From the NCBI RefSeq assembly GCF_000215935.2, contig NZ_AFNU02000004.1, forward strand, positions 1 through 64,000: DNA of 64,000 nt. The letters are read 5' to 3'. The position numbers and the translations under genes were made by a program. The DNA is from Haloplasma contractile SSD-17B (GTDB taxonomy: Bacteria; Bacillota_I; Bacilli_A; Haloplasmatales; Haloplasmataceae). Shown piece by piece: positions 28,291 to 37,280 of this stretch; position 1 is the stretch's first letter; every line of letters begins with the position of its first letter. The notes beneath the pieces were generated by a model that made no database searches, was not told where the DNA came from, and was given only the letters and a program-made list of their open reading frames with translations.

Positions 28291-28893
28291 TTAATTATTA
28301 CCAAACCAATCCTTAAATTTCTCTATAATTAAAAATGAATATTCAATTTCATGTTCTTCGTCTATTTTCGTCACATTTCCCGATTCATCAACTGCAAGAT
28401 CGACTAAACAGAGTGGTGGAAATAAAACACACCACCAATTATCTCCCTCACCTTCACCTAGATAAATATAAATTGAATCATAAGTACCTGCTGGATAAAC
28501 AGTATCACCATAAACCTTTTTTGGAAACTCTGTACGGCCATAGTCGACACTATAGTTCATATCCTCAAAACCATGCTCTTCTAACGCGTCATTTACTAGC
28601 TGACTTAAATCGTCTTGGCTATCATAGATCACTTCTCTAGCTTCTTGATAGTTGGCTTTATCTTTTAGTTTTGGTTCTAAATAAGTGATTACTTCATCAC
28701 GAATTTCTGTTTTAATTTGTTGGTCAATTTCAGAGTTGCTATTAGCTACAATTCTTAATCTGACCGCATCTTTTGGGATTGTTACTTCATCCGCTTGGGA
28801 AACTTTCAAATTCATTTTATTTTGAAATGCAATAAACACTGCAAATAATAAAATCAAAATTGTAAAACCGCGTCCACGTTGCATCCATATCAC
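28291..28893 (-). CDS. spoIIR: Stage II sporulation protein R
   Basis: In Bacillus the forespore-secreted SpoIIR triggers SpoIIGA to process pro-sigma-E in the mother cell. The 200-residue product has an N-terminal membrane/signal helix (residues 9-25), then the conserved VRLRIVANSNSEIDQQIK, PKKVYGDTVYPAGTYDSIYIYLGEGEGDNWWCVLFPPLC core diagnostic of the family. It is full length. The start is uncertain: a GTG (28891-28893) lies too near the AAAGG site, and ATG at 28882-28884 lies 12 nt from it. Its presence implies sporulation ancestry. Confidence 0.93.
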   Translation of the reverse strand: MIWMQRGRGFTILILLFAVFIAFQNKMNLKVSQADEVTIPKDAVRLRIVANSNSEIDQQIKTEIRDEVITYLEPKLKDKANYQEAREVIYDSQDDLSQLVNDALEEHGFEDMNYSVDYGRTEFPKKVYGDTVYPAGTYDSIYIYLGEGEGDNWWCVLFPPLCLVDLAVDESGNVTKIDEEHEIEYSFLIIEKFKDWFGNN

Positions 28894-34867: not shown

Positions 34868-35650
<783 letters not shown>

Positions 35651-35693
35651 CTACATTGCCTATTATACTACAGCATTCTAAAATAACAAAGTC

Positions 35694-35709
35694 TAGTAAG
35701 CGCTTTTGT
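35694..35709. promoter_or_regulatory. cre-like sequence upstream of tpiA
   Basis: TAGTAAGCGCTTTTGT matches the cre consensus at about 13 of 16 positions, with the central GCGC intact. Confidence 0.35.
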
Positions 35710-35777
35710 TATTTTTTTCTAATTTTTCTTATTTCTTTATCATATGCAGAGCAATTGTGCTTTACATATTGTTTATC

Positions 35778-36572
35778 TTATGCGATGCCTTCGTTTTCAT
35801 TATATTCATTCCATAGTAATTTATTTATAATGGTTACATTTTGTTCTCTTAAATATTTTATAGATGCTTGAATAACATAGGAATTACTAGGCGTATTTTT
35901 AACAAAATAATCATATCCTAACAACTGATGTGCAAAGTAATTATACTGCTTTTCTAACGAACGTTTTAAGCATGTTCTTATTGCTCGTTCTACACTGGCT
36001 TTACTTACTCCATACTTTTCTGCCGTTACTTTATAAAACATCATGACACCATGATTTAGAATATTTTTATCTTTATAACAATCGTGTAGTATCGTAGATA
36101 GATATTTGTAACCTACATAGCGTGTTTTTAATCCTAGCATCTCTAACAGATGTTTGATCTCATATTCCAAATTAAAGTGTTTATTTTTTTGTAAATTTAC
36201 ATCTTTATTTATATGATATATGATGTTAAATAAAGTCTTACTATTAATTTCTGCAGTTGAAATATAATCTATACCTATTTCATATGCTTTTGAGATAATG
36301 TACTCACTTATAAAGCTTAAGAGTACAATAATTCGTTTTGGCCGTTTACTCATCCTGTTCAACAATGTATTCAATGTCATCAAACCTGCATCTAGTATTG
36401 AATCTTTTACAATTAAGAGATCATACTCTTTTTCAAGTATTTTCTCATTTAAGTCTGCACTTGTTAAAGCATAGTCATCTAAGTGATATGAAACTGAATA
36501 TTCGAACTCTTCTTTTAAATTATGTATAAAACCAATATCATTATGTGCAATAAAAATACTTTTTTCTTCCAT
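35778..36572 (-). CDS. Spo0A-like response regulator with degenerate receiver domain
   Basis: The 264-residue product ends in a Spo0A-type DNA-binding domain from about residue 134: LLEMLGLKTRYVGYKYLSTILHDCY, EKYGVSKASVERAIR and QLLGYDYFVKNTPSNSYVIQ line up with the conserved sigma-A and DNA-contact helices. The N-terminal receiver-like domain has lost its phosphorylation site: the acidic pair becomes H10-N11, the phospho-acceptor Asp aligns with K56, and the conserved Lys is gone. It probably works without Asp phosphorylation. The ATG at 36570-36572 follows GGAG by 8 nt. It is monocistronic and could be a paralogue of a true Spo0A elsewhere. Confidence 0.85.
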   Translation of the reverse strand: MEEKSIFIAHNDIGFIHNLKEEFEYSVSYHLDDYALTSADLNEKILEKEYDLLIVKDSILDAGLMTLNTLLNRMSKRPKRIIVLLSFISEYIISKAYEIGIDYISTAEINSKTLFNIIYHINKDVNLQKNKHFNLEYEIKHLLEMLGLKTRYVGYKYLSTILHDCYKDKNILNHGVMMFYKVTAEKYGVSKASVERAIRTCLKRSLEKQYNYFAHQLLGYDYFVKNTPSNSYVIQASIKYLREQNVTIINKLLWNEYNENEGIA

Positions 36573-36691
36573 GCTACCATCTCCTACCACATCTATATAC
36601 CTACATTATAGCTCTTTTTAAAAAAAATGTAAAAATATACCTTAACTTCTAATAATTTAAATATAAATCTAGATTACTCGCGTTTTACATA

Positions 36692-36731: not shown

Positions 36732-37280
36732 TTAAAATTTAATTTCTACATCTTCCTTCTTACGCTCTTCAGCTTCAAAGAAATCTCTTTCAGAAAAATG
36801 TAACATACCTGCTACAATATTAGATGGAAATACACGACATCTTTGATTGAATACTGACACGTTCGCATTATATACTCGTCTAGCAGCTTGTAAATGTTCT
36901 TCTACATCATTTATCGCAAATTGTAAATGCTTAAAATTTTCATTTGCCTTTAAATCTGGATATTGTTCTACAACGACGTTAATTGCATGCATCGCTTCAT
37001 TCATTTGTGAAACCATTTCTTGCTTTTCTTTTAATGATGCACCTTTATTCGGTGTTCTCATGCTAACTACTTTTTCCAATGTTTCTTTCTCATGCTTAGC
37101 ATAACCCTTAACAACCTCAATCATTTTAGTAAGGACATCAAAACGCTTTGTTAACGCTACATCAATACCAGATTCAGCCTCATCGATTTTGATGTTTGTT
37201 CGTTGTAATCCATTGTAAGTAGTAGCAAACCACAATACAAGTATACCTACTACTATTAATACAGGAATAATCCAATCCAT
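36732..37280 (-). CDS. lemA: LemA family protein
   Basis: The 182-residue product has one N-terminal transmembrane helix (residues 4-20), followed by the helical LemA domain: TYNGLQRTNIKIDEAESGIDVALTKRFDVLTKMIEVVKGYAKHE, QYPDLKAN and the RRVYNANVSVFNQRCRVFPSNIVA block that defines the family. The biochemical role is not established. It lies 14 bp after a DUF3137 gene with AGGAGG between them; the two families are often paired. Confidence 0.93.
   Translation of the reverse strand: MDWIIPVLIVVGILVLWFATTYNGLQRTNIKIDEAESGIDVALTKRFDVLTKMIEVVKGYAKHEKETLEKVVSMRTPNKGASLKEKQEMVSQMNEAMHAINVVVEQYPDLKANENFKHLQFAINDVEEHLQAARRVYNANVSVFNQRCRVFPSNIVAGMLHFSERDFFEAEERKKEDVEIKF

Follow-up and report, generated by a model that had tools for sequence, protein, structure and literature searches.

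Results

Locus and domain organisation

The gene studied here lies in a window of 64,000 nucleotides, the whole stretch of Haloplasma contractile DNA that was analysed, and encodes a Spo0A-like pseudo-receiver transcription factor. It occupies positions 35778..36572 on the minus strand, with an ATG at 36572 and a stop codon that ends at 35778, and its translated product is 264 amino acids long. The coordinates given in the first-pass annotation were correct, and translation assigns the coding sequence to the minus strand. The next gene downstream is tpiA, encoding triosephosphate isomerase (34868..35620, minus strand), and the upstream neighbour is a lemA-like gene (36732..37280, minus strand).

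Pfam identified a Spo0A_C DNA-binding domain (PF08769) at residues 139–241 (35850..36158, minus strand), with a score of 58.4 bits against a cut-off of 25 and coverage of profile positions 1–104 of 104. Residues 1–126 (36195..36572, minus strand) form an N-terminal pseudo-receiver domain with a predicted (beta-alpha)5 fold. Response_reg (PF00072) was not matched in the Pfam search of the window protein, the exception among the eight orthologs described below, seven of which do match it. Against TIGR02875, the Spo0A equivalog model, the protein scored 55.3 bits over residues 15–243, below the cut-off of 200.

Orthologs in the Haloplasmatales

One ortholog per genome was found in all eight Haloplasmatales genomes examined, that of the window and seven relatives. 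The relatives' contigs that bear it carry the host names Haloplasma contractile, Inordinaticella fortuita, and uncultured Haloplasmataceae or Bacilli. The relatives' proteins share 29–33% full-length identity with the window copy. The gene lies between the lemA-like gene and tpiA in every one of these genomes, with an extra open reading frame intervening on the lemA side in one of them (G006), and the gap to tpiA is ~20–160 bp. A profile built from the eight orthologs was searched against 395 genomes sampled from the class. No ortholog was found in these genomes outside the Haloplasmatales; the best other protein scored 103 bits, which is in the range of canonical Spo0A, and the clade members score 347–433 bits. 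The eight orthologs form one clade in a tree of the DNA-binding domain (support 100/98) and also in a quick receiver tree (SH-aLRT 100).

In the two closest pairs of orthologs dN/dS is ~0.12 (G002–G007) and 0.16 (G001–G006), and in a more distant pair (G003–G005) it is ~0.3. Since synonymous change exceeds replacement change throughout this range, the gene is under purifying selection. The protein evolves ~3–6 times faster than canonical Spo0A (dN of 0.117 and 0.226 vs 0.039 and 0.036). A phage origin was considered and is not supported: no relative occurs in viral contigs, and unannotated phage records gave weak matches of ~22–25% identity.

Loss of the phosphorylation residues

The first-pass annotation had described a receiver that cannot be phosphorylated, with substitutions at the Asp pair, the phosphoacceptor Asp and the conserved Lys. 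We aligned the orthologs with canonical Spo0A proteins and with a B. subtilis Spo0A sequence; the conclusions are the same against the Spo0As taken from the genomes. H10-N11 (36540..36545, minus strand) align on the acidic Asp-Asp pair, K56 (36405..36407, minus strand) on the phosphoacceptor Asp without a gap, and A107 on the conserved Lys. All three substitutions are thus borne out, and the alignment places no Asp at the acceptor site. A further loss, absent from that annotation, affects the conserved Thr/Ser, whose position is taken by L85 in the window copy (36318..36320, minus strand). All five receiver signature residues are replaced, by H10, N11, K56, L85 and A107, and the window copy therefore lacks the residue set of a phosphorylatable receiver. 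The codons for A107-E108-I109 (36246..36254, minus strand) correspond to Lys-Pro-Phe in canonical Spo0A, hereafter K, K+1 and K+2.

The same replacements recur across the order. The two positions of the Asp pair are His and Asn in all eight orthologs, and the acceptor position is Lys in all eight, so that Lys is fixed there order-wide. The Thr/Ser position is Thr in the other seven orthologs. The conserved Lys is lost in every ortholog, with Ala, Leu, Val, Tyr or Phe instead; K+1, Pro in Spo0A, is Asp, Glu or Asn; and K+2 is Ile, Val or Met, compared with Phe in nearly all canonical copies. The aromatic residue at K-3 is replaced by Ile or Val and the Pro at D+4 is absent, again in all eight. 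By comparison, the main canonical Spo0As taken from these genomes retain the Asp pair, the acceptor Asp, Ser and Lys.

Only 11 of the 119 receiver columns are invariant among the eight orthologs, yet they include both positions of the Asp pair and the acceptor position (hypergeometric p ~6e-4). Against the drift of most of the receiver, the constancy of H10, N11 and K56 suggests that the pocket has a role. A shifted register with D57 as the acceptor was also examined. It is unlikely, because residue 57 is Asp in four orthologs and Asn in the other four; K56, by contrast, never varies and closes beta3.

Predicted fold

In an AlphaFold2 model computed with the eight orthologs, beta strands and alpha helices alternate in the N-domain, K56 closes beta3, and pLDDT is mostly 75–90 over residues 1–120. 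With 27 sequences the mean pLDDT is 86 for the whole model, and across the two models residues 1–120 are mostly at 75–95. Foldseek aligned the N-domain with the phosphorylated Spo0A receiver 1qmp (TM 0.79), in agreement with the receiver-like domain assumed in the first-pass annotation, and the C-domain with the Spo0A effector domain 1fc3 (TM 0.76, 30% identity). The models do not place the two domains reliably with respect to each other (pTM 0.47–0.54). Between the K position and the DNA-binding domain's first conserved Gly there are exactly 40 amino acids in all eight orthologs, vs 42–57 in the canonical Spo0A copies compared, and this short linker of fixed length suggests a fixed domain arrangement. 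The C-terminal tail of the orthologs is ~10 residues longer than in canonical proteins and forms a single long helix in the model (residues 230–261).

DNA-binding domain and 0A boxes

The first-pass annotation held that the DNA-binding domain keeps the Spo0A signature. This is right as far as the motifs go, since KASVERAIR, LLGYDYF and NTPSNS are all present in the translation. It does not extend to the recognition helix, which is altered, nor to the Spo0A_C scores, which are ~58–65 bits for the eight orthologs vs 147–151 for canonical copies of the same order. The predicted recognition-helix region, a helix in the model and located also by alignment, spans residues 191–208 (KASVERAIRTCLKRSLEK; 35949..36002, minus strand). 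In B. subtilis numbering, E213 and R217 are kept in all eight orthologs, R214 is Lys in seven of the eight, and changes common to the clade are R211 to S, H218 to T, S or L, and A219 to C.

The core of the 0A box is TGTCGAA. Near the window gene only partial matches with one mismatch were found, most of them inside the coding end of the upstream lemA-like gene. Upstream of spoIIE in the eight genomes there were scattered single-mismatch matches, none of note.

Base-contacting residues have been established for Bacillus Spo0A (cited in PMC3485338), and the isolated canonical DNA-binding domain is described there as binding its sites without phosphorylation, which makes phosphorylation-free binding by the window protein plausible. 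DNA binding by the clade is a prediction, and the Lys at R214 in seven of the eight orthologs and the differing neighbouring helix residues count against it.

Promoter context

A candidate sigma-A-type promoter, TTTACA-17-TATAAT (11/12), lies in the gene's own upstream gap (36605..36633, minus strand). Visual inspection of the regions upstream of the G001, G004 and G006 orthologs showed elements of the form TTGAAT/TTGATT-17-TATAAT. Chance alone yields many promoter-like sites in AT-rich DNA such as this (11 found in the region vs 8.5 expected), so this recurrence is suggestive only. The gap to lemA is only 9–21 bp in G002 and G007, which suggests co-transcription. By eye, a cre-like sequence (AGTAAGCGCTTTTG; ~35690–35715 of the window) was also seen within an inverted repeat, just upstream of a promoter-like site of tpiA.

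Other Spo0A proteins and sporulation genes

The host assembly (3.40 Mb, 34 contigs) encodes four Spo0A_C proteins including the window copy. A second, canonical spo0A, for which the first-pass annotation had proposed a search, was found on contig C1 downstream of a spoIVB-like sequence, a neighbour identified by eye; the window gene, with its lemA-like and tpiA neighbours, is not beside spoIVB. Two further copies lie on contigs C15 (L003), with a full pocket, and C2 (L002), with a D-H pair, the acceptor Asp and the Lys, and without the D+4 Pro. These three host proteins pass TIGR02875 with 328 (C1), 255 (C15) and 230 bits (C2). Canonical Spo0A is present in each of the eight Haloplasmatales genomes.

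Degenerate pockets were also observed elsewhere. A Spo0A copy in another Haloplasmatales genome (L023, G004 contig C163) carries S-D-G-G in place of the Asp pair, with Asn as its acceptor residue and Leu where the Lys would be; its pocket was lost independently. In genomes of family f19, within the same class, L097–L105 are full-length Spo0A-like proteins of ~214–270 amino acids with degraded receiver pockets and a spacing of 36–40 amino acids. Their pocket residues are other than the H-N...K of the Haloplasmatales clade, and they group apart from it in the receiver tree. They probably represent a separate origin of a pseudo-receiver Spo0A, and with these degenerate copies the pocket has probably been lost more than once in the Spo0A family. 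Shorter reading frames of ~85–200 amino acids on bacterial contigs (L106, L108–L110, L113–L115, L075 and L077) hold little beyond Spo0A_C and resemble the receiver-less phage homologs discussed below.

SpoIVA and a SpoIIE-like protein are encoded in all eight Haloplasmatales genomes, an order that NCBI assigns to the Mollicutes. The window itself carries spoIIR, for stage II sporulation protein R (28291–28893, minus strand; TIGR02837, 169 bits). Together these genes indicate that a sporulation programme probably exists in the host. Spo0B was not found in the host genome, where SPOB_a gave only a sub-cut-off match in a 20-amino-acid frame. In two relatives SPOB_a matches above the cut-off were rejected, as they fall in long open reading frames (393–519 amino acids) that are sensor-kinase-like. 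The first-pass annotation had called the protein freed from the phosphorelay. Every Asp-phosphorylation residue is indeed absent, but with no Spo0B found a phosphorelay may not exist in the host at all, and we have dropped that wording.

Discussion

The window protein has the same domain order as canonical Spo0A (TIGR02875; PF00072 and PF08769) and is homologous to it over the full length (hhalign, 241 columns, E 6e-16). It differs in being without the five phosphorylation residues, in a shorter and fixed hinge, in a longer C-terminal helix and in an altered recognition helix. Judged from the aligned residues, the chemistry of Asp phosphorylation is gone and a conserved replacement pocket stands in its place. 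Since the phosphate-accepting pocket has been replaced by fixed conserved residues, the protein must be controlled in another way.

We favour, at somewhat better than even confidence, an old and selected Haloplasmatales paralog of Spo0A whose pseudo-receiver is locked in a signalling-competent shape, whose DNA binding is independent of phosphorylation and whose output is set by its amount. The locked pseudo-receiver would hold the DNA-binding domain through the short linker of fixed length, and binding to DNA would need no phosphorylation and would probably involve either other sites than the canonical 0A box or a wider range of them. Output would follow from the level of protein supplied by a housekeeping-type promoter and might be adjusted by a partner or ligand, and the protein probably acts beside canonical phosphorylated Spo0A rather than instead of it. 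The shared changes at K+2, K-3, D+4 and in spacing, together with the putative sigma-A-type promoter, are in keeping with a regulator that works independently of phosphorylation and is governed by its amount, a partner or a ligand; the promoter and the conserved activating-type substitutions only lean towards regulation by ligand or amount. Ala, Ile, Leu or Val at K+2 push CheY to active conformations and are enriched in pseudo-receivers (reviewed in PMC12632262), and the losses of the K-3 aromatic and the D+4 Pro follow pseudo-receiver trends in all eight orthologs. Carried over from CheY, the K+2 argument suggests an active conformation.

The invariant His-Asn-Lys pocket makes ligand binding the main rival. 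Here the pocket would bind an anionic metabolite or nucleotide in the place of the phosphoryl group and so switch DNA binding, an unlikely reading, in favour of which three pocket residues are held constant in a drifting receiver, ligands of pseudo-receivers are known (JadR1, RedZ, CikA, KaiA and ShkA; PMC12632262) and a glycolytic gene, tpiA, adjoins in all eight genomes. The known ligands in that review mostly bind other surfaces, however, the adjacency of tpiA may be merely genomic, and the Lys and His could just stabilise the fold. A wider version, distinctly unlikely, is an order with two Spo0As, one phosphorylated and a phosphorylation-free sister whose His-Asn-Lys pocket senses an anionic metabolite and thus conveys nutritional state to a Spo0A-type regulon, bypassing histidine kinases. 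We regard it as improbable that the protein instead raises or lowers the sporulation threshold by forming mixed dimers with canonical Spo0A or competing for its sites: the canonical protein, SpoIVA and the SpoIIE-like protein do occur alongside it in each genome and the DNA-binding domains are homologous, but the recognition helix differs at several clade-shared positions and no 0A box was found near the window gene.

Covalent switching elsewhere in the domain, by phosphorylation of D12, D57 or the Thr85 of the orthologs or by modification of Lys, would have a precedent in the modified pseudo-receiver regulator GlnR (PMC12632262), and seven of the eight orthologs offer a Thr at that position, with Asp or Asn following K56. 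It is very improbable, as D12, D57 and T85 each fail to be conserved in all eight, the window copy has Leu at the Thr position and residue 57 is Asn in half of the orthologs. We give next to no credence to a functionless duplicate of Spo0A in decay. The faster protein change would be expected of one, but the gene is intact and syntenic in eight of eight genomes with dN/dS well below 1 and an invariant pocket, and a pseudogene was rejected on the grounds of dN/dS, synteny and invariance.

Several percent of receiver domains are pseudo-receivers (PMC12632262), and the kind is therefore already known. The window protein resembles the atypical response regulators ChxR, HP1043, GlnR, FrzS, RitR and JadR1 in having a receiver fold without the phosphorylation residues; like it, they mostly have a DNA-binding output, are orphan genes and show similar K+2, K-3 and D+4 changes (PMC12632262). 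It differs from them in that its output domain is Spo0A_C, Spo0A being unmentioned in that review, and in the acceptor substitute, which is Lys here and most frequently Glu in Asp-less receivers. Phage-carried Spo0A homologs have been reported that are without a receiver altogether (PMC10294663). They are alike in that a Spo0A DNA-binding domain is uncoupled from phosphorylation, whereas the window protein retains a conserved full receiver fold and its gene is chromosomal and syntenic. Our literature search, which covered mainly papers outside subscription, found no description of a pseudo-receiver or paralogous Spo0A.

Decision-making by phosphorylation has its textbook example in Spo0A. A conserved sister that has the receiver fold minus its chemistry means that this lineage split its Spo0A family into phosphorylated and unphosphorylated regulators. 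What switches bacterial pseudo-receivers is still an open question (PMC12632262), towards which the family offers an invariant pocket, a natural control in the canonical paralog of the same cell and, for swap experiments, the well-studied B. subtilis Spo0A.
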